From Sacculina carcini (lineage: Eukaryota > Arthropoda > Thecostraca > Sacculinidae), in contig OU696583.1 of NCBI GenBank assembly GCA_916048095.2, positions 2,579,001 through 2,643,000 of the forward strand: a stretch of 64,000 bases of DNA, written 5' to 3'. The position numbers were made by a program, and so were the translations under genes. Positions 2,162-62,835 of this stretch are shown piece after piece (positions within the stretch are counted from its first letter, which is position 1; the number at the start of each line of letters is the position of its first letter). The notes below the pieces were generated by a model that was given only the letters and a program-made list of their open reading frames with translations, did no database searches and had not been told where the DNA came from.

Positions 2162-2192
2162 TCTATATATATAAAAGAGATCCTCTGTGTGT

Positions 2193-2229
<37 letters not shown>

Positions 2230-2339
2230 CGACCCTCCTTGGTCCATTTTCTATCAGCTATTATTCGGCCACCACTCAGCCTACCCGCTAACAATTTATA
2301 CCATCACGTTGGAAATTTTCTTGTCTACACTTTAGATTA

Positions 2340-4100
2340 AATTTTAAATTTCAAAAATGAAATCATAAAAAGTTATAGCGGTGAAAAGACAAAATGAACC
2401 CTGAAAAATGCGAAAATTGTGGTCAATGCTCTGCCATCTACTCCTCATAAACCAGAAATGGTACAGCCAAACAGATTATACCACTGTGTAGAGAATTTTC
2501 TGTTCTACAAGATAGGTTATAATTCATATCCAAAAATAGAACATAAAAGATGTAAACATGACAAAATTTCAATCTATATTCAAAATTATATTTATACTCC
2601 ACGCGTCCGATTTTCTATACTTTTTTCTCTATGTATCAAAAACTAATTATCACACAACTAAATAAATAATACCATCATGCTGGGAATTTTGTTTGCTACA
2701 ACACGGTATAATTTTTAATTTTCCAAAGTGTATTGAAAAAAAGTTACGGCGGTGTGAAGTCAAAATGACAAAGTCAAAAATGCAAAATTAGCACTGGAAA
2801 CCGTGAATGTTTTGGTAAATATTCCCCTATCTATTCTTCATAAACCAGCAATGGTACAGCTATAAAAATTATACTATTGTGTAGATAATTTTGTGTTCTA
2901 CAAGAAAAGTTATAATTTATACCCACAAATGATACAAAAAATGTGTAAAATTGGCAAAATTGTCAAATACATCCAAAATTAAAATTGATCACCGGGCGCC
3001 TAAATTAATTCATTTTTCTACCTATTTCTCAGGAACTATTTGTCACACATTAAAATAAATTATATCATCGTGCTGGAAATTGTATTTTTTTAAATGCGGT
3101 ATAATTCTTAATTTTCCAAAGTGTATCTGAAGGAAGTGACGGCGGTGTAAAGTCAAAAGGACATATTGCCAATTTGACAGCTATTATGCGCACTTGCGAT
3201 TACACAGGAATATACTACTGTGTAGAGAATTTTGTGTTCTACAAGAAAAGGTATAATTTATACCCACAAATGATACAAAAAACGTGTAAAATTGGCAAAA
3301 TTCTCAAATGCATCCAAAATTACACTAGAACACCGGGTGACTAAAATTTATTCATTTTTCTACCCATTTCTCAGGAACTGTTTGTCATACCTTAAAATTA
3401 ATTATACCATCGTGCTAGAAATGTTGTTTTCTACAATACAGTATAATTCTTAATTTTCCAAGGTGTATCTGAAGGAAGATACGGCGGTGTAAAGTCAAAA
3501 TGTCATGTTGCCAATTTGACAGCTATTATGCGTACTTGCGATTACACATGAATATACACTGATTTAATTTCACTCAAGTCCAATCACAATTTACGCACTT
3601 GCGATTACACAGGAATATACTACTGTGTAGAGAATTTTGTGTTCTACAAGATAAGCTATAATTTATACCCACAAATGATACAAAAAACGTGTAAAATTGG
3701 CAAAATTCTCAAATACATCCAAAATTACACTTGAACACCGGGCGACTAAAATTAATTCATTTTTCTACTATTTCTCAGTAACTATTTGTTACACATAAAA
3801 ATAAATTATACCATCGTTCTAGAAATTTTTTCTTCTACAATACGGTATAATTTGTAATTTTCCAAAGGGTATCTGAAGGAAGTTACGGCGGTGTAAAGTC
3901 AAAAGGACATATTGCCAATTTGACAGCTATTATGCGCACTTGCGATTACACAGGAATATACACCGATTAAATTTCACTGAAGCCCAATCACAATTAAGAA
4001 TGCATCATATTATCTCCAAGCATGGATGGTGTGGTTTTATTGCGTACAGTTTAATTAATGCTACACTCTACTGAATATAAAGGCTTTATTGTCCTCAATA
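2340..4100 (+). repeat. Internal long tandem repeats of unit 1 (four copies)
   Basis: Four diverged copies, anchored by TGTAGA...TCTACA near 2489, 2881, 3221 and 3625, are spaced roughly 340-400 bp apart. Each copy carries the potential stem TGTAGA/TCTACA with an 11-base loop. Most also carry a perfect 15-base palindrome GGTATAATTTATACC (for example 3250-3264) or a close variant. Each later copy ends with GCACTTGCGATTACACAGG. These repeats are the main length-variable part of the units: three, four or six copies depending on the unit. The ORF of about 75 codons present in the first repeat has no signal of selection that I can see and recurs only because the repeat recurs. Confidence 0.8.
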
Positions 4101-4104
4101 ACGT

Positions 4105-6640
4105 TCCGCACGACGGGCGGGTAAAATGCTATTGGGAACAAAGTAAACTACTGAATTTAACTGTGTAATTTAATTGGTTTAATTTCAAGTTGCATAAGCA
4201 TAAGTTGCATAAGAATATGGGCTGCAATATCATGTAATGCCAACTTATGCTGTTTTAGCGGAAGCATTAACCTGGAATTATAGAGATGACAAAAGGTTGC
4301 ATTGTTTTGATAGTGTTGTGGAAAAACATGTTTTCTAAATTGAAACATAAATTTCACATTTAGACTTTTAGATTAGCTATAACTTTCCTGTGGGTTTGTT
4401 TTTCTTTTTCAATTTGCACTAATTTTTTTATGAATTGAATATTAATTATATTTTATGAACTGTTCCGCACGACGGGCGAATTAAATGTATCTATAAAGAG
4501 TGGGTTTAAATGATAGCGAGGTATATGATATTTTGCTAGCAGTAAATATTCTAGCGATAAAAGTAGAATAGCTCTTAAGCAAATGATTTTGGAGAATGAT
4601 GTGAACCTTTAAATATATTTTGCGATCTGATGATATATGTATTAGGAATAATACGTAGCAGAATATAGATTGCATAATATAATATCGGCTGTAATATCAA
4701 GGGCTGCATTATCGATGTAATCCAAAAAATAACAACTGTATGAATATGATGCATTAGTGGAAGCATTAAACGGGAATTATGAGATAATATGATAATGGTG
4801 TAAAATTATATCGCATTATGCAACAAATGTGAATTTAGCTACCTTACAGTTTGGTCCCGATACTATATTGGCGGGTTGAGAGAAAAGTATTGGTGGGCCG
4901 CGTGTTTGGGACCCCTGGGGTAGATAATCTCAGTCTTCTGATTACAAATTATGATCGCATCAGTATATTTTGTGATCACAAACTAATAAGTTAAATCACC
5001 TCAGACTAGGCTGAGAGCGGTCAAGATTGAATGGTTGGGTTGGGTTGGGTAGGTTTGACTCAGGTTATATTGGGTTTTAATGATAGCGGAAAATATATAA
5101 ATTTTAACAATAAATATTATAGCGGTAAAAGTGAAATAGTACTTAAGCAAATGATATTGGGGAATGATGTTAAGTAATAAATATAGTTTGGAAACAGTCT
5201 GATGAAAAGATTTCATCATCTTTCATTGTTTGTTTCGTGTTTGTGTTCTGAATTATACCACACGACGGGCAGATTTATATATCAGGCGGGTTGAGGGATA
5301 ATATTTGTCAAAATAAGAACAAAAATATTCACATTTAGACTTTTCTATTGGTCAAGATATTTATAGGTTACATTTTTTGCTTTTCGATTTGTATTCATTA
5401 TATTTTATGGATTTGATATGAATTTTATTGTATGAATTGTTCCGCACGACGGGTGGGCTTAAAAAAGTGTTTTTAGATCATTTTTTCAAATGGTTCATTT
5501 AAAAAAAGTTTTTTTTTTTAAAAATAAAAATGTTCCGCGGGCAGCAACTATAGACAATAGAACGTTCAATTTACCCTGTAGAATTAATCCATACACAAAA
5601 CCAATGGATTTGACTTCAAGATGCAGAACGGATCGTGTTCGAGTTCTGAATTATTCAGCACGACGGGCGGGTTTAAAAATGACTCAGGCGGACTGAGGGG
5701 AAATATTGTGTCGAAATAAAAATAATTAAACTTATAATTTTCAATTGATTAATATTTTTATGTGTGTACCCTATTTCATTTTTATTTTTCCATATTTTTT
5801 ATGAATTGAATATGAATTTCATGTTATGAATTGCTCCGCACAACTGGCGGGTTTTAATGCTATATATATACATAAAGAAGAAATTATCTGTCTGTCTGTG
5901 TATGTATGCTTGAATATGAGGTGACATAATTGCGCTGGCTCATGGTTCGCTGGTTCAATTATCAGGGGCTTCAAACGCAAACGAAGCGATGGCTCATTTT
6001 TATGAAATAAAAATGTCCCGCGGGCAGCAATAAAACGTTCAATTTCACCGTATAGAATGAATTCATATACAAAACTAATGGATTTGACTTCAAGAACCAG
6101 AACGGATGGTGTTCGAGTTCTGAATTTCTCCTCACGTCGGGCGGGTTTAAATATGAGGCGGGTTGAGTGAAAATATTTTGTCAAAATAAAATTAAAAATA
6201 ATGAAATTTAGACTTTTTAATTGATTAAGGTCTTCATGAGTTTGCCTTATTTATTTTTAATTTGCAATATTTTTATGAATTGTTCCGCACAACGGGCGGG
6301 TTTTAATGCGGTTTTAATGCTATATATATACATAAAGAAGAAATTATCTGTCTGTCTGTGTATGTATGCTTGAATATGAGGTGACATAATTGCGCTGGTT
6401 CATGGTTCGCTGGTTCAATGATCAGGGGCTTCAAACGCAAACGAAGCGATGGCTCATTTTTATGAAATAAAAATGTCCCGCGGGCAGCAATAAAACGTTC
6501 AATTTCACCGTGTAGAATGAATTCATATACAAAACTAATGGATTTGACTTCAAGAACCAGAACGGATGGTGTTCGAGTTCTGAATTATTCCGCACGTCGG
6601 CCGGGTTTAAATATGAGGCGGGCTGAGTGAAAATATTTTG
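4105..6640 (+). repeat. Hairpin-bearing 3' monomers of unit 1
   Basis: These are AT-rich monomers of about 150-350 bp. The typical order is a GC-rich motif (CCGCACGACGGGCGG), GTTTAAATATGAGGCGGG, an A-rich stretch, TTTAGACTTTT, then TTTATGAATTGAATATGAA leading to the next GC-rich motif. Variants include CAGCACGACGGGCGG, CCTCACGTCGGGCGG and CCGCACGTCGGCCGG. The same motif immediately precedes the TTTTAATGCTAG terminus of several units, so the terminal hairpin appears to have been copied serially. A TTGGGTTGGGTTGGG tract lies at about 5037-5051. Confidence 0.75.
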
Positions 6641-6735
6641 CTATATATATACATAAAGAAGAAATTATCTGTCTGTCTGTGTATGTATGCTTGAATATGA
6701 GGTGACATAATTGCGCAGGTCCAATGGTATATATA

Positions 6736-9700
6736 TCTATATATATAAAAGAGATCCTCTGTGTGTCTGTCTGTCTGTGTGTGTGTGTGTGTGTTCGACC
6801 CTCCTTGGTCCATTTTCTATCAGCTATTATTCGGCCACCACTCAGCCTACCCGCTAACAATTTATACCATCACGTTGGAAATTTTCTTGTCTACACTTTA
6901 GATTAAATTTTAAATTTCAAAAATGAAATCAAAAAAAGTTATAGCGGTGAAAAGACAAAATGAACCCTGAAAAATGCGAAAATTGTGGTCAATGCTCTGC
7001 CATCTACTCCTCATAAACCAGAAATGGTACAGCCAAACAGATTATACCACTGTGTAGAGAATTTTCTGTTCTACAAGATAGGTTATAATTCATATCCAAA
7101 AATAGAACATAAAAGATGTAAACATGACAAAATTTCAATCTATATTCAAAATTATATTTATACTCCACGCGTCCGATTTTCTATACTTTTTTCTCTATGT
7201 ATCAAAAACTAATTATCACACAACTAAATAAATAATACCATCATGCTGGGAATTTTGTTTGCTACAACACGGTATAATTTTTAATTTTCCAAAGTGTATT
7301 AAAAAAAAGTTACGGCGGTGTGAAGTCAAAATGACAAAGTCAAAAATGCAAAATTAGCACTGGAAACCGTGAATGTTTTGGTAAATATTCCCCTATCTAT
7401 TCCTCATAAACCAGCAATGGTACAGCTATAAAAATTATACTATTGTGTAGATAATTTTGTGTTCTACAAGAAAAGTTATAATTTATACCCACAAATGATA
7501 CAAAAAATGTGTAAAATTGGCAAAATTGTCAAATACATCCAAAATTAAAATTGATCACCGGGCGCCTAAATTAATTCATTTTTCTACCTATTTCTCAGGA
7601 ACTATTTGTCACACATTAAAATAAATTATATCATCGTGCTGGAAATTGTATTTTTTTAAATGCGGTATAATTCTTAATTTTCTAAAGTGTATCTGAAGGA
7701 AGTGACGGCGGTGTAAAGTCAAAAGGACATATTGCCAATTTGACAGCTATTATGCGCACTTGCGATTACACAGGAATATACTACTGTGTAGAGAATTTTG
7801 TGTTCTACAAGAAAAGGTATAATTTATACCCACAAATGATACAAAAAACGTGTAAAATTGGCAAAATTCTCAAATACATCCAAAATTTCACTTGAACACA
7901 GGCCGAATAAGATTAATTAATTTTTCTACTATTTCTCAGTAACTATTTGCTAAACATAAAAATAAATTATACCATCGTGCTAGAAATGTTGTTTTCTACA
8001 ATACAGTATAATTCTTAATTTTCCAAGGTGTATCTGAAGGAAGATACGGCGGTGTAAAGTCAAAATGTCATGTTGCCAATTTGACAGCTATTATGCGTAC
8101 TTGCGATTACACATGAATATACACTGATTTAATTTCACTCAAGTCCAATCACAATTTACGCACTTGCGATTACTCAGGAATATACTACTGTGTAGAGAAT
8201 TTTGTGTTCTACAAGATAAGCTATAATTTATAACCACAAATGATACAAAAAACGTGTAAAATTGGCAAAATTCTCAAATACATCCAAAATTTCACTTGAA
8301 CACCGGCCGAATAAGATTAATTAATTTTTCTACTATTTCTCAGTAACTATTTGCTAAACATAAAAATAAATTATACCATCGTGCTAGAAATCTTGTTTTC
8401 TACAATACGGTATAATTTGTAATTTTACAAAGTGTATCTGAAGGAAGTTACGGCGGTGTAAAGTCAAATTATCATGTTGCCAATTTGACAGCTATTATGC
8501 GCACTTGCGATTACACAGGAATATACACCGATTAAATTTCACTGAAGCCCAATCACAATTAAGAATTCATCATATTATCTCCAAGCATGGATGGTGTGGT
8601 TTTATTGCGTACAGTTTAATTAATGCTACACTATACTGAATATAAAGGCTTTATTGTCCTCAATAACGGAATATACTACTGTGTAGAAAATTTTGTGTTC
8701 TACAAGAAAAGGTATAATTTATACCCACAAATGATACAAAAAACGTGTAAAATTGGCAAAATTCTCAAATACATCCAAAATTACACTTGAGCACCGGGTG
8801 ACTAAAATTTATTCATTTTTCTACCTATTTCTCAAAAACTAATTGTGACACATTAAAATGAATTATACCATCGTGCTAGAAATTTTGGTTTCTACAATAC
8901 GGTATAATTCTTAAATATCCAAAGTGTATCTGAAGGAAGTTACGGCGGTGTAAAGTCAAAATGTCATCTTGCCAATTTGACAGCTATTATGCGCACTGGC
9001 GATTACACATGAATATACACTGATTTAATTTCACTGAAGTCTAATCACAATTGACGCACTTGCGATTACTCAGGAACATACTACTGTGTAGAGAATTTTG
9101 TGTTCTACAAGATAAGCTATAATTTATACCCACAAATGATACAAAAAACGTGTAAAATTGGCAAAATTCTCAAATACATCCAAAATTACACTTGAACACC
9201 GGGCGACTAAAATTAATTCATTTTTCTACTATTTCTCAGTAACTATTTGTTACACATAAAAATAAATTATACCATCGTTCTAGAAATCTTTTCTTCTACA
9301 ATACGGTATAATTTGTAATTTTCCAAAGGGTATCTGAAGGAAGTTACGGCGGTGTAAAGTCAAAAGGACATATTGCCAATTTGACAGCTATTATGCGCAC
9401 TTGCGATTACACAGGAATATACACCGATTAAATTTCACTGAAGCCCAATCACAATTAAGAATGCATCATATTATCTCCAAGCATGGATGGTGTGGTTTTA
9501 TTGCGTACAGTTTAATTAATGCTACACTCTACTGAATATAAAGGCTTTATTGTCCTCAATAACGTTCCGCACGACGGGCGGGTAAAATGCTATTGGGAAC
9601 AAAGTAAACTACTGAATTTAACTGTGTAATTTAATTGGTTTAATTTCAAGTTGCATAAGCATAAGTTGCATAAGGATATGGGTTGCAATATCATGTAATG

Positions 9701-12700
9701 CCAACTTATGCTGTTTTAGCGGAAGCATTAACCTGGAATTATAGAGATGAGAGAAAGTTTCATTGTTTTGATAGTATTAAATTCTGAATTACTACACACG
9801 AAGGACGGGTGAGAATTTGAGCAGTGTTGAGGGAAAAAACTTCGACAATAATTAAAACAAGAATTCACAAATTTGACTTTTTCTATTGGTCGTTTTTCAT
9901 CAATTTTCTTTGTGTTTGTTTCGTGTTTGAGTTCTGAATTTTTCCGCACGACGGGCAGCTTTAAATATGAGGCGGGTTGTGGAAAAACATGTTTTCTAAA
10001 TTGAAACATAAGTTTCACATTGAGACTTTTATATTGGCTAAAACGTTTCTATGGGTTTTTTCAATTTGCACTAATTTTTTATGAATTGAATATTAATTAT
10101 ATTCTATGAACTGTTCCGCACGACGGGCGGGCTTAAATGTATATATAAAGAGTGGGTTTACATGATAGCGAGGTATATGATATTTTGCTAGCAGTAAATA
10201 TTCTAGCGATAAAAGTAGAATAGCTCTCAAGCAAATGATTTTGGAGAATGATGTTAACCTTTAAATATATTTTGCGATCTGATGATATATGTATTAGGAA
10301 CAATACGTAGTAGAGTATAGATTGCATAATATAATATCGGCTGTAACATCAAGGGATGTAATATCGGTGTAATCCAAAAAATAACAACTGTATGAATGTG
10401 ATGCATTAGTGGAAGCATTAACCGGGAATTATGAGATAATATTATGGAAAAAATTCATGTATATACTAAAAAAATTTATTGTTATTTTGTGTTTACATTT
10501 CGAAATTATACCTGACGACAGGCGGGCTTAAGTATGAGGCGGGTTGACTGAATAATATGTCGTCAATTATTAGAATAAGAATATGCAAATTCAGAACAGG
10601 AATTTTCTATTGGTATAGATTTTACAATTCAGAGTTTTCTATTAGACTGGCTGTTTGCATGTAAATATGTATTACTTCTGTTTTATTAGTTGTTCCGCAC
10701 GACGGGTGGGTTTAAATATTAAATGTTACCGTGTAGAATGAGTTCATATACAAAACTCACGGGCTTGACTTCAAGATCCAGACTCACTAATGAAAATGTA
10801 TATTAAATGGTGTATAATTAAATCACATTATACAATAAATGTGATTTAACCAGTCTTACAATTTGGTTTCTATACTATAACGGCGAGGTGCGAGAAAAGT
10901 ATTGGTGGGCCGCGTGTTTGAGTCCCCTGGCGTAAATAATCTCAAACTTCTGATTAGAAATTATGATTGAATCGGTTCATTTTGTGATCACAAACTAATA
11001 AGTTGGATCACCTCAGATTAGGCTGGGTTATGTCAAGATGGGGTGGTTGGGTTGGGTTGGGTAGGTTTGACTCAGGTTATATTGGGTTTTAATGATAGCG
11101 GAAAATATATAAGTTTAAGCAATACATATTATAGCGGTAAAAGTAAAATAGTACTTAAGCAAATGATGTTGGGGAATCATGTTAAATAATAAATATAGTT
11201 TGGAAACATTCTGATGAAAAGATTTCATCATCTTTCATTGTTTGTTTCGTGTTTGTGTTATGAAGTATACCACACGACGGGCAGATTTATATATCAGGCG
11301 GCTTGAGGGATAATATTTGTCAAAATTAAAACAAAAATATCCACATTTAGACTTTTCTATTGGTCAAGATATTTATAGCTTACATTTTTTGCTTTTAAAT
11401 TTGTATTCATTATATTTTATGGATTTGGTATGAATTTTATTGTATGGAAACAATAAAATGAAATTCCTGATTGTTCCGCACGACGGGCGGGTTTAAAAAA
11501 AAGTGTTTTTAGTTCATTTTTTCAAATGGTTCATTTAAAAATATGTAATTTTTTTAAATAAAAATGATCCGCGGGCAGCAACCATAGACAATAGAACGTT
11601 CAATTTCCCCTGTAGAATTAATCCATACACAAACCAATGGATTTTACTTCAAGATCCAGAACGGATCGTGTTCGAGCTCTGAATTATTCAACACGACAGG
11701 CGGGTTTAAAAATGACTCAGGCGGACTGAGGGGAAATATGTTGTCGAAATAAAAATAATTAAACTTATAATTTTCAATTGATAAATATTTTATGAGTGTA
11801 CCCTATTTCATTTTTATTTTTCCATATTTTTTATGAATTGAATATGAATTTCATGTTATGAATTTCTCCGCACAGCGGGCGGGTATTAATGCCATATATA
11901 TACATAAAGAAGAAATTATCTGTCTGTCTGTGTATGTATGCTTGAATATGAGGTGACATAATTGCGCTGGTTCAATGGTATATATATATACATAAAGAAG
12001 AAATTATCTGTCTGTCTGTGTATGTATGCTTGGATATGAGGTGACATAATTGCGCAGGTTCAATGGTATATATATACATAAAGAAGAAATTATCTGTCTG
12101 TCTGTGTATGTATGCTTGAATATGAGGTGACATAATTGCGCGGGTTCAATGGTATAGATCAGGGGCTTAATTGTTCCGCACGACGGGCGGGTAAAATGCT
12201 ACTGGGAACAAAGTAAACTACTGAATTATTGTACCATATAGAACCATTAAATAAAAAACCATTATTATATAATAAAAAACCATTTGAATATTAGTTAGTT
12301 AGTTGTCATTAGTTGGTTTATATATAAAGAACCATTGGTGTTGGGGCTTAATTGTTCCGCACGACGGGCGGGTTTAAATATGAGGCTGTTCGAGGGAAAA
12401 TGTTAAATGTTTTGCTTTTTAATTTGTATTCAGTTTATTTTATGGATTGAATATGCATTTTATTTTATGGATTGAATATGCATATTATTTTATGGATTGA
12501 ATATGCATTTCATTTTATAAATTGTTCAGCACGATGGGCGGGTTTAAATATGAGACGGGCTGAAGGAAAATATGTTGTCAAAAAATATAATTGAATTTAG
12601 ACTTTTCAATTGAGTAAGATTTTAATGAGTATATCTGTTTTCTTTTTTAATTTGCAATATGTTTATGAATTAAATATGAATTTAATGCTTGAATATGAGG

Positions 12701-13552
12701 TGACATAATTGCGCTGGCTCATGGTTCGCTGGTTCAATTATCAGGGGCTTCAAACGCAAACGAAGCGATGGCTCATTTTTATGAAATAAAAATGTCCCGC
12801 GGGCAGCAATAAAACGTTCAATTTCACCGTATAGAATGAATTCATATACAAAACTAATGGATTTGACTTCAAGAACCAGAACGGATGGTGTTCGAGTTCT
12901 GAATTTTTCCTCACGTCGGGCGGGTTTAAATATGAGGCGGGTTGAGTGAAAATATTTTGTCAAAATAAAATTAAAAATAATGAAATTTAGACTTTTTAAT
13001 TGATTAAGGTCTTCATGAGTTTGCCTTATTTATTTTTAATTTGCAATATTTTTATGAATTCTTCCGCACAACGGGCGGGTTTTAATGCGGTTTTAATGCT
13101 ATATATATACATAAAGAAGAAATTATCTGTCTGTCTGTGTATGTATGCTTGAATATGAGGTGACATAATTGCGCTGGTTCATGGTTCGCTGGTTCAATGA
13201 TCAGGGGCTTCAAACGCAAACGAAGCGATGGCTCATTTTTATGAAATAAAAATGTCCCGCGGGCAGCAATAAAACGTTCAATTTCACCGTGTAGAATGAA
13301 TTCATATACAAAACTAATGGATTTGACTTCATGAACCAGAACGGATGGTGTTCGAGTTCTGAATTATTCCGCACGTCGGCCGGGTTTAAATATGAGGCGG
13401 GCTGAGTGAAAATATTTTTTCAAAATGTAAATTAAAAATAATAAAATTTAGACTTTTTAATTGATTAAGGTTTTTATGAGTTTGCCTTATTTATTTTTAA
13501 TTTGCAATATTTTTATGAATTCTTCCGCACAACGGGCGGGTTTTAATGCTAG
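6736..13552 (+). mobile_element. Helitron-like array, unit 2 (long form)
   Basis: The unit starts with TC at 6736, inside an AT tract where unit 1 and its distant duplicate diverge, so this looks like a clean insertion or junction point. A TG tract and leader are followed by six internal long repeats (anchors near 7053, 7445, 7785, 8189, 8675, 9086) and then hairpin monomers from about 9562. Within 11,890-12,160 three short second-type leaders (CTGTCTGTCTGTGTATG) are tandemly stacked. It ends with TTTTAATGCTAG at 13552. No protein-coding gene is visible. Confidence 0.6.
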
Positions 13553-13584
13553 TCTATATATATAAAAGAGATCCTCTGTGTGTC

Positions 13585-13622
<38 letters not shown>

Positions 13623-16600: not shown

Positions 16601-17847
16601 TTCAAGATGCAGAACGGATCGTGTTCGAGTTCTGAATTATTCAGCACGACGGGCGGGTTTAAAAATGACTCAGGCGGACTGAGGGGAAATATTGTGTCGA
16701 AATAAAAATAATTAAACTTATAATTTTCAATTGATTAATATTTTTATGAGTGTACCCTATTTCATTTTTATTTTTCCATATTTTTTATGAATTGAATATG
16801 AATTTCATGTTATGAATTGCTCCGCACAACTGGCGGGTTTTAATGCTATATATATACATAAAGAAGAAATTAGATCATGTCTGTCTGTGTATTATCTGTC
16901 TGTCTGTGTATGTATGCTTGAATATGAGGTGACATAATTGCGCTGGCTCATGGTTCGCTGGTTCAATTATCAGGGACTTCAAACGCAAACGAAGCGATGG
17001 CTCATTTTTATGAAATAAAAATGTCCCGCGGGCAGAAATAAAACGTTCAATTTCACCGTATAGAATGAATTCATATACAAAACTAATGGATTTGACTTCA
17101 AGAACCAGAACGGATGGTGTTCGAGTTCTGAATTTTTCCTCACGTCGGGCGGGTTTAAATATGAGGCGGGTTGAGTGAAAATGTTTTGTCAAAATAAAAT
17201 TAAAAATAATGAAATTTAGACTTTTTAATTGATTAAGGTCTTCATGAGTTTGCCTTATTTATTTTTAATTTGCAATATTTTTATGAATTGTTCCGCACAA
17301 CGGGCGGGTTTTAATGCGGTTTTAATGCTATATATATACATAGATATTTAGATAGATACATAGATATTTAGATATTTTATTTAGATTACATAGATATATA
17401 TACATACATATTTAATGCTATATATATATATGTGTATGTATGCTTGAATATGAGGTGACATAATTGCGCTGGTTCATGGTTCGCTGGTTCAATGATCAGG
17501 GGCTTCAAACGCAAACGAAGCGATGGCTCATTTTTATGAAATAAAAATGTCCCGCGGGCAGCAATAAAACGTTCAATTTCACCGTGTAGAATGAATTCAT
17601 ATACAAAACTAATGGATTTGACTTCAAGAACCAGAACGGATGGTGTTCGAGTTCTGAATTATTCCGCACGTCGGCCGGGTTTAAATATGAGGCGGGCTGA
17701 GTGAAAATATTTTGTCAAAATGTAAATTAAAAATAATGAAATTTAGACTTTTTAATTGATTAAGGTTTTTATGAGTTTGCCTTATTTATTTCTAATTTGC
17801 AATATTTTTATGAATTCTTCCGCACAACGGGCGGGTTTTAATGCTAG
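13553..17847 (+). mobile_element. Helitron-like array, unit 3 (short form)
   Basis: The unit starts TCTATATATATAAAAGAG immediately after CTAG. It has only three internal long repeats (anchors near 13881, 14274, 14613), then hairpin monomers from about 15089. It is closely similar to unit 6, at an offset of about 15,711 bp. A private AT-rich insertion with ATAGATATTTAGATA repeats lies at about 17338-17440. It ends in TTTTAATGCTAG at 17847, again directly followed by TC. Confidence 0.6.
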
Positions 17848-17868
17848 TCTATATATATAAAAGAGATC

Positions 17869-17900
<32 letters not shown>

Positions 17901-20900: not shown

Positions 20901-22345
20901 TTTTCATGAGTTTGCCTTATTTATTTTTAATTTGCAATATTTTTATGAATTGCTCCGCACAACGGGCGGGTTTTAATGCCATATATATACATAAAGAAGA
21001 AATTATCTGTCTGTCTGTGTATGTATGCTTGAATATTAGGTGACATAATTGCGCTGGTTCATGGTTCGCTGGTTCAATGATCAGGGGCTTCAAACGCAAA
21101 CGAAGCGATGGCTCATTTTTATGAAATAAAAATGTCCCGCGGGCAGCAATAAAACGTTCAATTTCACCGTATAGAATGAATTCATATACAAAACTAATGG
21201 ATTCAACTTCAAGAACCAGAACGGATGGTGTTCGAGTTCTGAATTTTTCCTCACGTCGGGCGGGTTTAAATATGAGGCGGGTTGAGTGAAAATATTTTGT
21301 CAAAATAAAATTAAAAATTATGAAATTTAGACCTTTTAATTGATTAAGGTTTTCATGACTTTGCCTTATTTATTTTTAATTTGCAATTTTTTTATTAATT
21401 GCTCCGCACAACGGGCGGGTTTTAATGCTATATATATATATATATATATATATACATAAAGAAGAAATTATCTGTCTGTCTGTGTATGTATGCTTGAATA
21501 TGAGGTGACATAATTGCGCTGGTTCATGGTTCGCTGGTTCAATGATCAGGGGCTTCAAACGCAAACGAAGCGATGGCTCATTTTTATGAAATAAAAATGT
21601 CCCGCGGGCAGCAATAAAACGTTCAATTTCACCGTATAGAATGAATTCATATACAAAACTAATGGATTTGACTTCAAGAACCAGAACGGATGGTGTTCGA
21701 GTTCTGAATTATTCCTCACGTCGGGCGGGTTTAAATATGAGGCGGGATGAGTGAAAATATTTTGTCAAAATAAAATTAAAAATAATGAAATTTAGACCTT
21801 TTAATTGATTAATGTTTTCATGAGTTTGCCTTATTTATTTTTAATTTGCAATATTTTTATGAATTGCTCCGCACAACGGGCGGGTTTTAATGCCATATAT
21901 ATACATAAAGAAGAAATTATCTGTCTGTCTGTGTATGTATGCTTGAATATTAGGTGACATAATTGCGCTGGTTCATGGTTCGCTGGTTCAATGATCAGGG
22001 GCTTCAAACGCAAACGAAGCGATGGCTCATTTTTATGAAATAAAAATGTCCCGCGGGCAGCAATAAAACGTTCAATTTCACCGTATAGAATGAAATCATA
22101 TACAAAACTAATGGATTCAACTTCAAGAACCAGAACGGATGGTGTTCGAGTTCTGAATTTTTCCTCACGTCGGGCGGGTTTAAATATGAGGCGGGTTGAG
22201 TGAAAATATTTTGTCAAAATAAAATTAAAAATAATGAAATTTAGACCTTTTAATTGATTAAGGTTTTCATGACTTTGCCTTATTTATTTTTAATTTGCAA
22301 TTTTTTTATTAATTGCTCCGCACAACGGGCGGGTTTTAATGCTAG
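17848..22345 (+). mobile_element. Helitron-like array, unit 4
   Basis: Six internal long repeats (anchors near 18177, 18560, 18898, 19308, 19795, 20203) occupy 18010-20475. Near 20475 the last repeat is broken and joined directly to a hairpin motif and then to a short tandem array of second-type elements (20512-22340), so the usual set of 3' monomers is missing. The unit ends in TTTTAATGCTAG at 22345. The first internal repeat is more diverged than in the other units, and the ORF seen there in other copies is destroyed. Confidence 0.6.
20512..22340 (+). repeat. 914-bp higher-order repeat of about 457-bp second-type elements
   Basis: Four tandem units of about 457 bp each start CATATATATACATAAAG or with a longer TA tract. 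They continue with CTGTCTGTCTGTGTATG, TGAGGTGACATAATTGCGC and GGGGCTTCAAACGCAAACG, and end with CCGCACAACGGGCGGGTTTT. Units 1 and 3 have a long TA tract and the GAATTATTCC variant; units 2 and 4 have a short TA tract, ATTAGGTGAC and GAATTTTTCC. The array is therefore a duplicated dimer, two copies 914 bp apart. The second-type element shares its 3' end with the large units but has a different 5' end. Confidence 0.75.
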
Positions 22346-22374
22346 TACATATATAAAAGAGATCCTCTGTGTGT

Positions 22375-22411
<37 letters not shown>

Positions 22412-25400
22412 CGACCCTCCTTGGTCCATTTTCTATCAGCTATTATTCGGCCACCACTCAGCCTACCCGCTAACAATTTATACCATCACGTTGGAAATTT
22501 TCTTGTCTACACTTTAGATTAAATTTTAAATTTCAAAAATGAAATCATAAAAAGTTATAGCGGTGAAAAGACAAAATGAACCCTGAAAAATGCGAAAATT
22601 GTGGTCAATGCTCTGCCATCTACTCCTCATAAACCAGAAATGGTACAGCCAAACAGATTATACCACTGTGTAGAGAATTTTCTGTTCTACAAGATAGGTT
22701 ATAATTCATATCCAAAAATAGAACATAAAAGATGTAAACATGACAAAATTTCAATCTATATTCAAAATTATATTTATACTCCACGCGTCCGATTTTCTAT
22801 ACTTTTTTCTCTATGTATCAAAAACTAATTATCACACAACTAAATAAATAATACCATCATGCTGGGAATTTTGTTTGCTACAACACGGTATAATTTTTAA
22901 TTTTCCAAAGTGTATTGAAAAAAAGTTACGGCGGTGTGAAGTCAAAATGACAAAGTCAAAAATGCAAAATTAGCACTGGAAACCGTGAATGTTTTGGTAA
23001 ATATTCCCCTATCTATTCTTCATAAACCAGCAATGGTACAGCTATAAAAATTATACTATTGTGTAGATAATTTTGTGTTCTACAAGAAAAGTTATAATTT
23101 ATACCCACAAATGATACAAAAAATGTGTAAAATTGGCAAAATTGTCAAATACATCCAAAATTAAAATTGATCACCGGGCGCCTAAATTAATTCATTTTTC
23201 TACCTATTTCTCAGGAACTATTTGTCACACATTAAAATAAATTATATCATCGTGCTGGAAATTGTATTTTTTTAAATGCGGTATAATTCTTAATTTTCCA
23301 AAGTGTATCTGAAGGAAGTGACGGCGGTGTAAAGTCAAAAGGACATATTGCCAATTTGACAGCTATTATGCGCACTTGCGATTACACAGGAATATACTAC
23401 TGTGTAGAGAATTTTGTGTTCTACAAGAAAAGGTATAATTTATACCCACAAATGATACAAAAAACGTGTAAAATTGGCAAAATTCTCAAATGCATCCAAA
23501 ATTACACTAGAACACCGGGTGACTAAAATTTATTCATTTTTCTACCCATTTCTCAGGAACTGTTTGTCATACCTTAAAATTAATTATACCATCGTGCTAG
23601 AAATGTTGTTTTCTACAATACAGTATAATTCTTAATTTTCCAAGGTGTATCTGAAGGAAGATACGGCGGTGTAAAGTCAAAATGTCATGTTGCCAATTTG
23701 ACAGCTATTATGCGTACTTGCGATTACACATGAATATACACTGATTTAATTTCACTCAAGTCCAATCACAATTTACGCACTTGCGATTACACAGGAATAT
23801 ACTACTGTGTAGAGAATTTTGTGTTCTACAAGATAAGCTATAATTTATACCCACAAATGATACAAAAAACGTGTAAAATTGGCAAAATTCTCAAATACAT
23901 CCAAAATTACACTTGAACACCGGGCGACTAAAATTAATTCATTTTTCTACTATTTCTCAGTAACTATTTGTTACACATAAAAATAAATTATACCATCGTT
24001 CTAGAAATTTTTTCTTCTACAATACGGTATAATTTGTAATTTTCCAAAGGGTATCTGAAGGAAGTTACGGCGGTGTAAAGTCAAAAGGACATATTGCCAA
24101 TTTGACAGCTATTATGCGCACTTGCGATTACACAGGAATATACACCGATTAAATTTCACTGAAGCCCAATCACAATTAAGAATGCATCATATTATCTCCA
24201 AGCATGGATGGTGTGGTTTTATTGCGTACAGTTTAATTAATGCTACACTCTACTGAATATAAAGGCTTTATTGTCCTCAATAACGTTCCGCACGACGGGC
24301 GGGTAAAATGCTATTGGGAACAAAGTAAACTACTGAATTTAACTGTGTAATTTAATTGGTTTAATTTCAAGTTGCATAAGCATAAGTTGCATAAGAATAT
24401 GGGCTGCAATATCATGTAATGCCAACTTATGCTGTTTTAGCGGAAGCATTAACCTGGAATTATAGAGATGACAAAAGGTTGCATTGTTTTGATAGTGTTG
24501 TGGAAAAACATGTTTTCTAAATTGAAACATAAATTTCACATTTAGACTTTTAGATTAGCTATAACTTTCCTGTGGGTTTGTTTTTCTTTTTCAATTTGCA
24601 CTAATTTTTTTATGAATTGAATATTAATTATATTTTATGAACTGTTCCGCACGACGGGCGAATTAAATGTATCTATAAAGAGTGGGTTTAAATGATAGCG
24701 AGGTATATGATATTTTGCTAGCAGTAAATATTCTAGCGATAAAAGTAGAATAGCTCTTAAGCAAATGATTTTGGAGAATGATGTGAACCTTTAAATATAT
24801 TTTGCGATCTGATGATATATGTATTAGGAATAATACGTAGCAGAATATAGATTGCATAATATAATATCGGCTGTAATATCAAGGGCTGCATTATCGATGT
24901 AATCCAAAAAATAACAACTGTATGAATATGATGCATTAGTGGAAGCATTAAACGGGAATTATGAGATAATATGATAATGGTGTAAAATTATATCGCATTA
25001 TGCAACAAATGTGAATTTAGCTACCTTACAGTTTGGTCCCGATACTATATTGGCGGGTTGAGAGAAAAGTATTGGTGGGCCGCGTGTTTGGGACCCCTGG
25101 GGTAGATAATCTCAGTCTTCTGATTACAAATTATGATCGCATCAGTATATTTTGTGATCACAAACTAATAAGTTAAATCACCTCAGACTAGGCTGAGAGC
25201 GGTCAAGATTGAATGGTTGGGTTGGGTTGGGTAGGTTTGACTCAGGTTATATTGGGTTTTAATGATAGCGGAAAATATATAAATTTTAACAATAAATATT
25301 ATAGCGGTAAAAGTGAAATAGTACTTAAGCAAATGATATTGGGGAATGATGTTAAGTAATAAATATAGTTTGGAAACAGTCTGATGAAAAGATTTCATCA

Positions 25401-26918
25401 TCTTTCATTGTTTGTTTCGTGTTTGTGTTCTGAATTATACCACACGACGGGCAGATTTATATATCAGGCGGGTTGAGGGATAATATTTGTCAAAATAAGA
25501 ACAAAAATATTCACATTTAGACTTTTCTATTGGTCAAGATATTTATAGGTTACATTTTTTGCTTTTCGATTTGTATTCATTATATTTTATGGATTTGATA
25601 TGAATTTTATTGTATGAATTGTTCCGCACGACGGGTGGGCTTAAAAAAGTGTTTTTAGATCATTTTTTCAAATGGTTCATTTAAAAAAAGTTTTTTTTTT
25701 TAAAAATAAAAATGTTCCGCGGGCAGCAACTATAGACAATAGAACGTTCAATTTACCCTGTAGAATTAATCCATACACAAAACCAATGGATTTGACTTCA
25801 AGATGCAGAACGGATCGTGTTCGAGTTCTGAATTATTCAGCACGACGGGCGGGTTTAAAAATGACTCAGGCGGACTGAGGGGAAATATTGTGTCGAAATA
25901 AAAATAATTAAACTTATAATTTTCAATTGATTAATATTTTTATGTGTGTACCCTATTTCATTTTTATTTTTCCATATTTTTTATGAATTGAATATGAATT
26001 TCATGTTATGAATTGCTCCGCACAACTGGCGGGTTTTAATGCTATATATATACATAAAGAAGAAATTATCTGTCTGTCTGTGTATGTATGCTTGAATATG
26101 AGGTGACATAATTGCGCTGGCTCATGGTTCGCTGGTTCAATTATCAGGGGCTTCAAACGCAAACGAAGCGATGGCTCATTTTTATGAAATAAAAATGTCC
26201 CGCGGGCAGCAATAAAACGTTCAATTTCACCGTATAGAATGAATTCATATACAAAACTAATGGATTTGACTTCAAGAACCAGAACGGATGGTGTTCGAGT
26301 TCTGAATTTCTCCTCACGTCGGGCGGGTTTAAATATGAGGCGGGTTGAGTGAAAATATTTTGTCAAAATAAAATTAAAAATAATGAAATTTAGACTTTTT
26401 AATTGATTAAGGTCTTCATGAGTTTGCCTTATTTATTTTTAATTTGCAATATTTTTATGAATTGTTCCGCACAACGGGCGGGTTTTAATGCGGTTTTAAT
26501 GCTATATATATACATAAAGAAGAAATTATCTGTCTGTCTGTGTATGTATGCTTGAATATGAGGTGACATAATTGCGCTGGTTCATGGTTCGCTGGTTCAA
26601 TGATCAGGGGCTTCAAACGCAAACGAAGCGATGGCTCATTTTTATGAAATAAAAATGTCCCGCGGGCAGCAATAAAACGTTCAATTTCACCGTGTAGAAT
26701 GAATTCATATACAAAACTAATGGATTTGACTTCAAGAACCAGAACGGATGGTGTTCGAGTTCTGAATTATTCCGCACGTCGGCCGGGTTTAAATATGAGG
26801 CGGGCTGAGTGAAAATATTTTGCTATATATATACATAAAGAAGAAATTATCTGTCTGTCTGTGTATGTATGCTTGAATATGAGGTGACATAATTGCGCAG
26901 GTCCAATGGTATATATAT
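22346..26918 (+). repeat. Segmental duplicate of 2162-6736 at constant offset
   Basis: Landmarks at 2419, 4157, 4481, 5001, 5490 and 5819 recur at 22601, 24339, 24663, 25183, 25672 and 26001, all exactly 20,182 bp later, so there are almost no net indels over 4.5 kb. Private variants are shared by the two copies and absent from other units, such as AATCATAAAAAG near 2363 and 22545. Homology stops at 6736/26918, exactly where unit 2 begins in the first copy. This indicates a recent copying event inside the array. Confidence 0.85.
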
Positions 26919-29267
26919 ACATAAAGAAGAAATTATCTGTCTGTCTGTGTGTGTATGCTTGAATATGAGGTGACATAATTGCGCGGGTTCAATGGTATAG
27001 ATCAGGGGCTTAATTGTTCCGCACGACGGGCGGGTAAAATGCTACTGGGAACAAAGTAAACTACTGAATTATTGTACCATATAGAACCATTAAATACAAA
27101 ACCATTATTATATAATAAAGAACCATTTGAGTATTAGTTAGTTAGTTGTCATTAGTTGGTTTATATATAAAGAACCATTGGTGTTGGGGCTTAATTGTTC
27201 CGCACGACGGGCGGGTTTAAATATGAGGCTGTTCGAGGGAAAATGTTAAATGTTTTGCTTTTTAATTTGTATTCAGTTTATTTTATGGATTGAATATGCA
27301 TTTTATTTTATGGATTGAATATGCATTTTATTTTATAAATTGTTCAGCACGACGGGCGGGTTTAAATATGAGACGGGCTGAAGGAAAATATGTTGTCAAA
27401 AAATATAATTGAATTTAGACTTTTCAATTGAGTAAGATTTTAATGAGTATATCTGTTTTCTTTTTTAATTTGCAATATGTTTATGAATTAAATATGAATT
27501 TCATCTTATGAATTGCTCCGCACAACTGGCGGGTTTCATTGCTAGACGGTGATATTAAGTTATTAAAATATTTTGGAAACATTATGATGAAAAAGTGTAG
27601 TCATTTTTCATTGTTTCGTGTCTGAGTTCTGAATTATTCAGCACGACGGGCATGTATAAATATGAGGCGGTTTAGGCAAACTATTTTGTGAAAATAAATA
27701 TGAAAATATAGAAATTTAGACTTTTGTATGGGTTTACTCAACTCTTTTTTAATTCATATTCCTTTTCTCTCATGAATTGAATACAAATTTAATAGTATGA
27801 ACTGTTTCGCACGACGGGCGAATTTACATGCTAGGATTTTCATTGTTTGTTACGTGTTTGTGTTCTGAATTATTCCGCACAATGGGCTGGTTTATATATG
27901 AGGCGGGTTGAGGGAAAATATTATGTCAAAATAAAAATAAAAATATTCACACTTGGACTTTTCTATTGAGTAAGACACTGATGAGTTTTCATTTTCTTTT
28001 TTAATTTGGAATATTTTTATGAATATGAATTATTATGAATATTAATTCCATTTTATGAATTCCTCCGCACAACGGGCGGGTTTTAATGCTAGTATATACA
28101 TAAAGAAGAAATTATCTGTCTGTCTGTGTGTGTATGCTTGAATATGAGGTGACATAATTGCGCGGGTTCAATGGTATAGATCAGGGGCTTAATTGTTCCG
28201 CACGACGGGCGGGTAAAATGCTACTGGGAACAAAGTAAACTACTGAATTATTGTACCATATAGAACCATTAAATACAAAACCATTATTATATAATAAAGA
28301 ACCATTTGAGTATTAGTTAGTTAGTTGTCATTAGTTGGTTTATATATAAAGAACCATTGGTGTTGGGGCTTAATTGTTCCGCACGACGGGCGGGTTTAAA
28401 TATGAGGCTGTTCGAGGGAAAATGTTAAATGTTTTGCTTTTTAATTTGTATTCAGTTTATTTTATGGATTGAATATGCATTTTATTTTATGGATTGAATA
28501 TGCATTTTATTTTATAAATTGTTCAGCACGACGGGCGGGTTTAAATATGAGACGGGCTGAAGGAAAATATGTTGTCAAAAAATATAATTGAATTTAGACT
28601 TTTCAATTGAGTAAGATTTTAATGAGTATATCTGTTTTCTTTTTTAATTTGCAATATGTTTATGAATTAAATATGAATTTCATCTTATGAATTGCTCCGC
28701 ACAACTGGCGGGTTTCATTGCTAGACGGTGATATTAAGTTATTAAAATATTTTGGAAACATTATGATGAAAAAGTGTAGTCATTTTTCATTGTTTCGTGT
28801 CTGAGTTCTGAATTATTCAGCACGACGGGCATGTATAAATATGAGGCGGTTTAGGCAAACTATTTTGTGAAAATAAATATGAAAATATAGAAATTTAGAC
28901 TTTTGTATGGGTTTACTCAACTCTTTTTTAATTCATATTCCTTTTCTCTCATGAATTGAATACAAATTTAATAGTATGAACTGTTTCGCACGACGGGCGA
29001 ATTTACATGCTAGGATTTTCATTGTTTGTTACGTGTTTGTGTTCTGAATTATTCCGCACAATGGGCTGGTTTATATATGAGGCGGGTTGAGGGAAAATAT
29101 TATGTCAAAATAAAAATAAAAATATTCACACTTGGACTTTTCTATTGAGTAAGACACTGATGAGTTTTCATTTTCTTTTTTAATTTGGAATATTTTTATG
29201 AATATGAATTATTATGAATATTAATTCCATTTTATGAATTCCTCCGCACAACGGGCGGGTTTTAATG
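26910..29267 (+). repeat. 1,179-bp direct tandem duplication
   Basis: The two halves 26910-28088 and 28089-29267 match at a constant 1,179-bp offset and look identical wherever I compared them. Each contains a second-type leader, the ATAGAACCATTAAATACA segment, a TTAGTTAGTTAG stretch, five or so hairpin monomers and a terminal TTTTAATGCTAG. The first terminus (about 28090) is followed by a second-type leader, the second (29271) by a unit 6 leader. A related single copy with small differences is found at about 12130-12560 in unit 2. Confidence 0.85.
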
Positions 29268-29271
29268 CTAG

Positions 29272-32200
29272 TATATATATAAAAGAGATCCTCTGTGTGT
29301 CTGTCTGTGTGTGTGTGTGTCTGTGTGTGTGTTCGACCCTCCTTGGTCCATTTTCTATCAGCTATTATTCGGCCACCACTCAGCCTACCCGCTAACAATT
29401 TATACCATCACGTTGGAAATTTTCTTGTCTACACTTTAGATTAAATTTTAAATTTCAAAAATGAAATCAAAAAAAGTTATAGCGGTGAAAACACAAAATG
29501 AACCCTGAAAAATGCGAAAATTGTGGTCAATGCTCTGCCATCTACTCCTCATAAACCAGAAATGGTACAGCCAAACAGATTATACCACTGTGTAGAAAAT
29601 TTTCTGTTCTACAAGATAGGTTATAATTCATATCCAAAAATAGAACATAAAAGATGTAAACATGACAAAATTTCAATCTATATTCAAAATTATATTTATA
29701 CTCCACGCGTCCGATTTTCTATAATTTTTTCTCTATGTATCAAAAACTAATTATTACACAACTAAATAAATAATACCATCATGCTGGGAATATTGTTTGC
29801 TACAACACGGTATAATTTTTAATTTTCCAAAGTGTATTAAAAAAAAGTTACGGCGGTGTGAAGTCAAAATGACAAAGTCAAAAATGCAAAATTTGCACTG
29901 GAAACCGTGAATGTTTTGGTAAATATTCCCCTATCTATTCCTCATAAACCAGCAATGGTACAGCTATAAAAATTATACTATTGTGTAGATAATTTTGTGT
30001 TCTACAAGAAAAGTTATAATTTATACCCACAAATGATACAAAAAATGTGTAAAATTGGCAAAATTGTCAAATACATCCAAAATTACACTTGATCACCGGG
30101 CGCCTAAATTAATTCATTTTTCTACCTATTTCTCAGGAACTATTTGTCACACATTAAAATAAATTATATCATCGTGCTGGAAATTGTATTTTTTAAATGC
30201 GGTATAATTCTTAATTTTCCAAAGTGTATCTGAAGGAAGTGACGGCGGTGTAAAGTCAAAAGGACATATTGCCAATTTGACAGCTATTATGCGCACTTGC
30301 GATTACACAGGAATATACTACTGTGTAGAGAATTTTGTGTTCTACAAGAAAAGGTGTAATTTATACCCACAAATGATACAAAAAACGTGTAAAATTGGCA
30401 AAATTCTCAAATACATCCAAAATTACACTTGAACACCGGGCGACTAAAATTAATTCATTTTTCTACTATTTCTCAGTAACTATTTGTTACACATAAAAAT
30501 AAATTATACCATCGTTCTAGAAATCTTTTCTTCTACAATACGGTATAATTTGTAATTTTCCAAAGGGTATCTGAAGGAAGTTACGGCGGTGTAAAGTCAA
30601 AAGGACATATTGCCAATTTGACAGCTATTATGCGCACTTGCGATTACACAGGAATATACACCGATTAAATTTCACTGAAGCCCAATCACAATTAAGAATG
30701 CATCATATTATCTCCAAGCATGGATGGTGTGGTTTTATTGCGTACAGTTTAATTAATGCTACACTCTACTGAATATAAAGGCTTTATTGTCCTCAATAAC
30801 GTTCCGCACGACGGGCGGGTAAAATGCTATTGGGAACAAAGTAAACTACTGAATTTAACTGTGTAATTTAATTGGTTTAATTTCAAGTTGCATAAGCATA
30901 AGTTGCATAAGGATATGGGTTGCAATATCATGTAATGCCAACTTATGCTGTTTTAGCGGAAGCATTAACCTGGAATTATAGAGATGACAGAAGGTTGCAT
31001 TGTTTTGATAGTGTTGTGGAAAAACATGTTTTCTAAATTGAAACATAAATTTCACATTTAGACTTTTAGATTAGCTATAACTTTCCTGTGGGTTTGTTTT
31101 TCTTTTTCAATTTGCACTAATTTTTTTATGAATTGAATATTAATTATATTTTATGAACTGTTCCGCACGACGGGCGAATTAAATGTATCTATAAAGAGTG
31201 GGTTTAAATGATAGCGAGGTATATGATATTTTGCTAGCAGTAAATATTCTAGCGATAAAAGTAGAATAGCTCTTAAGCAAATAATTTTGGAGAATGATGT
31301 GAACCTTTAAATATATTTTGCGATCTGATGATATATGTATTAGGAATAATACGTAGCAGAATATAGATTGCATAATATAATATCGGCTGTAATATCAAGG
31401 GCTGCATTATCGATGTAATCCAAAAAATAACAACTGTATGAATATGATGCATTAGTGGAAGCATTAACCGGGAATTATGAGATAATATGATAATGGTGTA
31501 AAATTATATCGCATTATGCAACAAATGTGAATTTAGCTACCTTACAGTTTGGTCCCGATACTATATTGGCGGGTTGAGAGAAAAGTATTGGTGGGCCGCG
31601 TGTTTGGGACCCCTGGGGTAGATAATCTCAGTCTTCTGATTACAAATTATGATCGCATCAGTATATTTTGTGATCACAAACTAATAAGTTAAATCACCTC
31701 AGACTAGGCTGAGAGCGGTCAAGATTGAATGGTTGGGTTGGGTTGGGTAGGTTTGACTCAGGTTATATTGGGTTTTAATGATAGCGGAAAATATATAAAT
31801 TTTAACAATAAATATTATAGCGGTAAAAGTGAAATATTACTTAAGCAAATGATATTGGGGAATGATGTTAAGTAATAAATATAGTTTGGAAACAGTCTGA
31901 TGAAAAGATTTCATCATCTTTCATTGTTTGTTTCGTGTTTGTGTTCTGAATTATACCACACGACGGGCAGATTTATATATCAGGCGGGTTGAGGGATAAT
32001 ATTTGTCAAAATAAGAACAAAAATATTCACATTTAGACTTTTCTATTGGTTAAGATATTTATAGGTTACATTTTTTGCTTTTCAATTTGTATTCATTATA
32101 TTTTATGGATTTGATATGAATTTTATTGTATGAATTGTTCCGCACGACGGGTGGGTTTAAAAAAGTGTTTTTAGATCATTTTTTCAAATGGTTCATTTAA

Positions 32201-33471
32201 AAAAAGGTTTTTTTTTTTTAAATAAAAATGTTCCGCGGGCAGCAACTATAGACAATAGAACGTTCAATTTACCCTGTAGAATTAATCCATACACAAAACC
32301 AATGGATTTGACTTCAAGATGCAGAACGGATCGTGTTCGAGTTCTGAATTATTCAGCACGACGGGCGGGTTTAAAAATGACTCAGGCGGACTGAGGGGAA
32401 ATATTGTGTCGAAATAAAAATAATTAAACTTATAATTTTCAATTGATTAATATTTTTATGAGTGTACCCTATTTCATTTTTTATTTTTCCATATTTTTTA
32501 TGAATTGAATATGAATTTCATGTTATGAATTGCTCCGCACAACTGGCGGGTTTTAATGCTATATATATACATAAAGAAGAAATTATCTGTCTGTCTGTGT
32601 ATGTATGCTTGAATATGAGGTGACATAATTGCGCTGGCTCATGGTTCGCTGGTTCAATTATCAGGGCCTTCAAACGCAAACGAAGCGATGGCTCATTTTT
32701 ATGAAATAAAAATGTCCCGCGGGCAGCAATAAAACGTTCAATTTCACCGTATAGAATGAATTCATATACAAAACTAATGGATTTGACTTCAAGAACCAGA
32801 ACGGATGGTGTTCGAGTTTTGAATTTTTCCTCACGTCGGGCGGGTTTAAATATGAGGCGGGTTGAGTGAAAATATTTTGTCAAAATAAAATTAAAAATAA
32901 TGAAATTTAGACTTTTTAATTGATTAAGGTCTTCATGAGTTTGCCTTATTTATTTTTAATTTGCAATATTTTTATGAATTGTTCCGCACAACGGGCGGGT
33001 TTTAATGCGGTTTTAATGCTATATATATACATAAAGAAGAAATTATCTGTCTGTCTGTGTATGTATGCTTGAATATGAGGTGACATAATTGCGCTGGTTC
33101 ATGGTTCGCTGGTTCAATGATCAGGGGCTTCAAACGCAAACGAAGCGATGGCTCATTTTTATGAAATAAAAATGTCCCGCGGACAGCAATAAAACGTTCA
33201 ATTTCACCGTGTAGAATGAATTCATATACAAAACTAATGGATTTGACTTCAAGAACCAGAACGGATGGTGTTCGAGTTCTGAATTATTCCGCACGTCGGC
33301 CGGGTTTAAATATGAGGCGGGCTGAGTGAAAATATTTTGTCAAAATGTAAATTAAAAATAATGAAATTTAGACTTTTTAATTGATTAAGGTTTTTATGAG
33401 TTTGCCTTATTTATTTTTAATTTGCAATATTTTTATTAATTCTTCCGCACAACGGGCGGGTTTTAATGCTA

Positions 33472-33472
<1 letters not shown>
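29272..33472 (+). mobile_element. Helitron-like array, unit 6 (last unit)
   Basis: This three-repeat short form matches unit 3 nearly throughout (for example 15144 to 30855, 15468 to 31179, 15562 to 31273, all at +15,711). It ends with hairpin plus TTTTAATGCTAG at 33472, followed by a T and a TA microsatellite. That is the right boundary of the 31-kb array. Small private changes, such as AAATATTAC near 31833, show the copies have diverged slightly since duplication. Confidence 0.6.

Positions 33473-33510
<38 letters not shown>
33473..33510. repeat. (TA)n microsatellite at the array boundary
   Basis: About 38 bases of alternating TA directly follow the terminal CTAG of unit 6. An AT-rich target next to the terminus fits the A/T insertion preference known for Helitrons. 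Confidence 0.9.
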
Positions 33511-62816: not shown

Positions 62817-62835
62817 TTCTTTTGATCGGAAGGAT

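Follow-up and report, generated by a model that had tools for sequence, protein, structure and literature searches.

A head-to-tail array of non-autonomous Helitrons beside a RepHel element in Sacculina carcini, and its probable growth by insertion at resident 5' ends

The region analysed is a 64,000-nucleotide stretch (the window) of the genome of the arthropod Sacculina carcini, covering positions 2,579,001 to 2,643,000 of the forward strand of contig OU696583.1 (C18:2579001-2643000) in assembly GCA_916048095.2, which comprises 264 Mb in 43 contigs. Window positions 2162-33472 are occupied by a row of Helitron units with 5' TC and 3' CTAG termini, many of which are joined directly end to end. 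Positions below are those of the window unless a contig is named, and a slash marks the boundary between two units or between a unit and its flank.

The row consists of eight segments on the plus strand; that the units all face one way is as the original prediction had it. Six of them (U1, U2, U3, U4, U5 and U7) are A-type units whose 5' end reads (TCTA)TATATATAAAAGAGATCC or nearly so; the other two (B6a and B6b) are 1,179-bp units with a different 5' end. Upstream in the same row lies U0 (1-2161), the 3' part of a RepHel-bearing element, which ends in CTTCCGCACGACGGGCGGGTTTTAATGCTAG. U1 (2162-6735), a non-autonomous unit, starts with TCTATATATATAAAAGAGATCC and shares its first 1.4 kb with U5; neither U1 nor U5 has a terminal CTAG of its own. 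U2 (6736-13552) starts at an A/TC inside the TATATATA tract of a type-B module and ends in CTAG. The TC in this AT tract had been noticed before, but the boundary is shifted by one base, to 6735/6736, the T at 6736 being base 1 of U2. U3 (13553-17847) has a CTAG/TC join on each side, and U4 (17848-22345) is a diverged unit with about four 449-bp 3' modules. U5 (22346-26913) reads TACATATATAAAAG after the preceding CTAG. B6a (26914-28092) has the variant 5' end TATATACATAAAGAAG and ends in CTAG; B6b (28093-29271) is its exact tandem duplicate (100% over 1,179 bp), with the join CTAG/TATATACATAAAG. U7 (29272-33472), the last unit, ends in CTAG and is followed by a (TA)19 tract (33473-33510), whose first base is T, as insertion between A and T predicts.

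Unit-boundary CTAG ends are thus found at 2161, 13552, 17847, 22345, 28092, 29271 and 33472. The letters at these boundaries agree with the CTAG/TC joins first reported at 2161/2162, 13552/13553 and 17847/17848 and with the CTAG/TA joins at 22345 and 29271; the count of six units has to be raised, since the join at 28092/28093 had been overlooked and the stretch 22346-29271 is made up of U5, B6a and B6b. Each segment holds 7 to 13 terminator-like motifs, of which in the A units (4.2-6.8 kb) at most the last one ends in CTAG; B6a and B6b each have two additional inexact terminator motifs, both ending in CTAG. Adjacent A units are 92.5-98.2% alike over their first 1.4 kb, and U4 is 92-93% alike to the other A units. 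The closest pairs are U1 and U5, identical over 1,338 bp and not adjacent, and U3 and U7, 99.8% alike over 1,332 bp. Copies 98-100% alike to the first kilobase of U1 are present on many contigs, so the identity of U1 and U5 needs no special local event, and a block duplication is a possible source of it.

The original prediction had noted the lack of a Rep/helicase gene. This holds inside 2162-33472, where the listed frames of at least 130 amino acids are only 132-150 amino acids long, but fails for the element joined directly upstream. An intact open reading frame (ORF) of 1,704 amino acids, with Helitron_like_N (PF14214), PIF1 (PF05970) and Pif1 2B (PF21530) domains, is located about 20 kb left of the window (C18:2556633-2561744), and the element joined at 2161/2162 carries both this RepHel gene and the array's kind of 3' terminus. 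The terminal 29-68 bp of the element are 85-97% alike to the 3' ends of the small units. A profile search of the genome with PF14214 gave 150 matches, and DNA similarity searches, in each of which 40 candidate places were scored, found near-full-length matches (92-100%) to window 662-2161 at 16 of the 40 places, the window included. Of the 30 best RepHel matches, 12 are followed on their own strand by this 3' end, at a distance of 20.6-27.7 kb (C18, C1 twice, C8, C11, C12 twice with the 3' end in pieces, C19, C21 twice, C35 and C36), and the segment right after the RepHel ORF recurs with its inverted partner at many of these places. Because the spacing recurs, the RepHel region and the 3' end appear to form one transposing unit, which would be at least 26.6 kb long (C18:2554501-2581161) and whose protein presumably moves the array units.

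Further features were observed in the RepHel region and its relatives. At C18:2561745-2576767 and equivalent places on C1, C8, C19, C21 and C36, segments of about 0.7+0.7 kb next to the RepHel ORF reappear, inverted, about 12-15 kb away. A shortened relative of the RepHel element, whose upstream and 3' parts lie only about 1.4 kb apart, is found in two copies with a 12,568-bp period at C19:5004526-5021184. In many RepHel copies (on C1, C7, C8, C11, C19 and others) the profile match breaks off near position 162 and resumes in another frame a few bases on; an inherited frameshift, recoding or a small insertion could be behind this. A cluster of partial Helitron_like_N matches, many of them at about profile positions 100-191, lies at C35:3.3-4.5 Mb. 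A 201-bp piece at C19 was considered as the 5' end of the RepHel element and rejected, since only a 12-bp spacer separates the 3' end there from an ordinary unit. The view that the left-hand locus L089, in which no family termini were found, is an unrelated Helitron was likewise dropped because of its distance from the 3' end at window 2161.

The termini of the array units are abundant in the genome. Totals given here are whole-genome counts, and places described individually from pattern searches are the first 100 in contig order, which is not a random sample. There are 1,994 exact copies (934+1,060) of the 24-base 5' motif, 2,874 (1,406+1,468) of the 20-base 3' motif and 361 (175+186) of the perfect 34-base CTAG/TC join. 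Reversed-pattern controls gave 0 matches genome-wide for each of the three, so the motifs are not due to chance. The base before the exact 5' end was A at 23 of 30 loci and G at one (L015), while six were CTAG joins, three with and three without TC. The base after the exact 3' end was T at 29 of 30 loci (selected for CTAG) and A at one (L045). A/TC was counted 1,680 times genome-wide. Host-flanked copies thus nearly always read A/TC...CTAG/T, many of them with (TA)n flanks, which is the canonical Helitron pattern. These flanks bear out the original identification as Helitrons with CTAG and TC termini against the refuting case named with it, solo copies with target duplications or other termini. 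Helentrons (Helitron2) have an endonuclease domain and insert elsewhere than between A and T, whereas here the flanks are A and T and no endonuclease domain was found in the RepHel ORF (Pfam, E 0.001). Satellite DNA forms long arrays of near-identical monomers, whereas the window's units measure 1.2-6.8 kb, its A units are 92-100% alike, and copies are spread over many contigs.

How one unit comes to stand directly before another can be followed at a locus on C1 (1.73-2.43 Mb), of which six copies are among the loci read. Five copies (L016, L017, L018, L022 and L023) hold a single unit, V. The sixth (L020/L021) consists of the left flank, a unit U, V and the right flank, and U and V are joined as CTAG/TC. 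Its left flank is 100% identical over 1,404 bp, U is 95.0% alike to V, V is 99.94% alike to the unit of L016, and the right flank is 99.5% alike. The simplest account of this comparison would be the insertion of U at the A/TC edge of V; no target-site duplication is seen in this one event.

The direction of neighbours agrees with this account. Genome-wide, the 361 perfect head-to-tail joins compare with one perfect head-to-head locus. Among the first 100 listed 5' ends, which are on C1, pairs less than 8 kb apart were on the same strand in 30 cases and on opposite strands in 4 (p 3e-6), whereas beyond 8 kb the numbers were 33 and 32. A same-strand 3' end lay within 200 bp upstream of 14 of 55 5' ends in this C1 set, at a spacing of 0 or -2 in 11 of the 14, and no head-to-head neighbour was found within 200 bp of those ends. 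Joins searched more widely numbered 689; among the first 100 of these, 61 had a perfect TC, 23 had no TC, 6 had TA in place of TC and 10 had other forms.

Runs of several joined units were also found. A run on C4 has four joins at spacings of 4545, 4544 and 4544 bp, and runs on C2 (4596/4596) and C6 (4612/4609) are similarly regular. Among the first 100 listed joins, the two spacings agreed to within 10 bp in 4 of 8 neighbouring pairs, where permutation gave 0.42 (p 0.0002). Over 381 bp, three of the C4 junction pieces do not differ at all; the fourth shares their 3' end and has a different downstream unit. The first C4 unit has the left flank ATA/TC and a 5' part slightly unlike the rest of the run. 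The junction sequence of this run was tried as a query to tell local runs from dispersed joins and gave no separation.

We consider it probable that the window contains a non-autonomous array of a recently active canonical Helitron family, next to its RepHel element, which has grown mainly by insertion at the 5' A/TC edge of resident copies. New copies facing the same way as the resident would enter at its A/TC and leave CTAG/TC with neither duplication nor loss. The Rep protein of the family would nick the resident 5' terminus, as it must for starting transposition, and this strand-specific nick could serve as the landing site of the incoming copy; nicking of the resident end may thus be the cause of the targeting. 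In a second process, copying of several unit lengths from a joined-end (circular) or read-through intermediate would give short runs of identical units. The evidence points to end-targeted, one-way insertion as a main route to such arrays.

Several observations weigh against this interpretation. The filled and empty C1 copies represent one event; they may be segmental duplicates, and an ancestral pair that lost U is an alternative, although a less parsimonious one. The ratio of 361 to 1 may overstate the bias, since head-to-head joins make long palindromes, which may disappear in cells or in the assembly. Imperfect or spaced head-to-head arrangements do exist, at L028 and L038 among the 30 5' loci and at C1:10594351 and C8:8643007; in the C1 set, 3 of 34 pairs closer than 8 kb were head-to-head and one opposite-strand 3' end lay within 58 bp outside a 5' end. 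Roughly one in four of the first 100 listed joins, like the window joins at 22345 and 29271, is missing precisely the TC of the unit downstream (CTAG/TATATATATAAAAG), a class that the interpretation does not account for; those compared have different subfamilies on either side. Some joins may be copied dimers and not fresh events: all 40 places scored with the C4 junction matched over the full length at 97-100%, and 37 of these are not part of the C4 run. Three of the 13 multi-join runs with at least two spacings have unequal ones (C1 3709/3952/4587, C1 7167/3330 and C3 6641/2024). The 3' hairpin, a CCGC and GCGG stem ending 13 nt before the end, is weak (-4.1 kcal/mol; z -0.5 to -1.6 at three ends). 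As for the RepHel partner, one of the 30 best matches has the window 662-2161 3' end at 3.8 kb and 17 are without it within 40 kb, some of the 17 belonging to another RepHel family with a DNA similarity of only 72-74%. In the DNA from C18:2554501 onward, no 5' end of the RepHel-bearing element was found; it probably lies further left of L089, because positions 1-1200 of this locus are common to other copies from its first base.

The strongest alternative, possible though less probable as a general explanation, is rolling-circle read-through, in which the transposition complex passes the 3' terminator, or circles repeatedly on a joined-end template, and lays down head-to-tail units. It would yield the exact CTAG/TC joins, the single orientation, the runs of equal length and the identity of B6a and B6b; circles of Helraiser bear exactly this join (in the passages drawn on from PMC4778049), and tandem arrays of plants and bats have been interpreted in this way (according to a part of PMC5876387). 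The joins by themselves, from which the original prediction had argued for read-through, are no proof of it, since insertion at the A/TC front edge of a resident leaves the same sequence. Read-through does not suit most junctions of the window, where the difference between one A unit and the next is about 2-7.5% and U1 and U5, which are identical, are not adjacent. It also does not suit the C1 locus, where two different units are joined, nor the ends of the C4 and C2 runs, where the last unit is joined to a different subfamily. For the identical-unit runs themselves (B6a/B6b, C4 and C2), read-through or concatemer formation is likely, and it does contribute to arrays, because identical tandem units exist (B6a and B6b; three C4 junctions). 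We infer that these runs arose by rolling-circle copying and not by unequal crossing-over.

Enlargement of an initial pair of units by unequal crossing-over or segmental duplication seems unlikely as the main process. The pairs U1/U5 and U3/U7 suggest duplication of a multi-unit block, runs of equal length could be expanded in this way, and RepHel matches recur with neighbouring segments at the fixed large spacings of 29,275 bp on C36 and 36,974 bp on C21. Neither process, however, provides an origin for the first CTAG/TC join or accounts for mixed-subfamily joins on many contigs. Still less can be said for plain insertion between A and T in TA-rich DNA, with resident 5' ends as just another target and no directional preference. 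Many copies have (TA)n flanks, and 3 of the 14 close same-strand neighbours in the C1 set are separated by spacers of 6-18 bp, but head-to-head and head-to-tail joins should then be equally frequent, and joins inside a resident's TA tract should occur, whereas remnants of such insertion (TATATAT, TATAT or TAT) were found in 0 of the first 100 listed joins. On the direction counts and the missing remnants, simple TA-tract targeting was rejected as the main cause. An assembly error that inflated the number of near-identical copies is the least credible explanation, for although identical units such as those of C4 and B6a/B6b are of the type that assemblers can multiply, differences among the window's A units reach 8%, and the 361 joins are spread over many contigs, next to different neighbours.

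Growth by insertion at resident 5' edges can be carried a step further, tentatively, in a proposal for which there is nearly as much to be said as against it. Rep may use resident 5' termini as strand-specific docking points, so that arrays grow upstream in one direction and mix subfamilies, and later damage to internal CTAG ends would fuse them into larger composite Helitrons. This would be a route by which Helitrons collect many termini, and array formation would be targeted, through its link to the site that Rep nicks. Head-to-tail Helitron arrays have served as evidence for rolling-circle transposition, and if joins often arise by insertion at the ends of residents, that argument needs care. 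Counting can tell the two mechanisms apart in this genome, which has natural joins in the hundreds along with near-identical copies and an apparent RepHel partner.

To the right of the array, a tRNA match (46.7 bits) lies on the minus strand at 34750-34817; at Rfam gathering scores nothing but this one tRNA was found. Positions 61392-62840 hold a 482-amino-acid open frame on the minus strand, which by eye resembles a non-LTR (long terminal repeat) reverse transcriptase.

In S. carcini neither the kind of element nor the kind of arrangement is new; the array gives an unusually clear view of how such rows form. Its family is closest to canonical Helitrons of the Helraiser/Helibat1 type, for which the passages drawn on from PMC4778049 describe 5' TC and 3' CTAG termini, insertion between A and T without duplication, a RepHel protein and circles with a CTAG-TC join; the termini, the target and the RepHel protein are shared. 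It differs in having joins by the hundred in the genome itself, often between different subfamilies, and in the apparent length of the RepHel element, at least 26.6 kb; for maize, Helitrons of up to 39 kb are given in part of PMC6431247. The maize elements in the portion of PMC3288121 drawn on have multiple or pseudo 3' termini from nested insertion, and the likeness extends to internal 3'-end copies with damaged CTAG and to a preference for insertion near or inside other Helitrons, whereas the A units of S. carcini, at 4.2-6.8 kb, each carry 7-13 terminator-like motifs, none of them ending in CTAG except, in some units, the last. In Fusarium, both readings were raised for one case of three tandem copies, and the self-insertions of FoHeli elements in Fusarium and Metarhizium, described as single cases, concern Helitron2-like elements with asymmetric inverted repeats, unlike the S. 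carcini family (as far as the relevant section of PMC5148889 goes). Tandem arrays in bats, maize, rice and Drosophila, as cited in excerpts of PMC5876387 and PMC5148889, show the same head-to-tail or tandem copies with joined ends, and those of bats and plants were taken as support for rolling-circle transposition (PMC5876387, same excerpts). The passages of this literature used here contain no count of join direction and no filled and empty case at a resident 5' end. The S. carcini copies offer both, and the filled and empty site together with the orientation counts point to insertion at resident 5' ends as a main source of mixed arrays.

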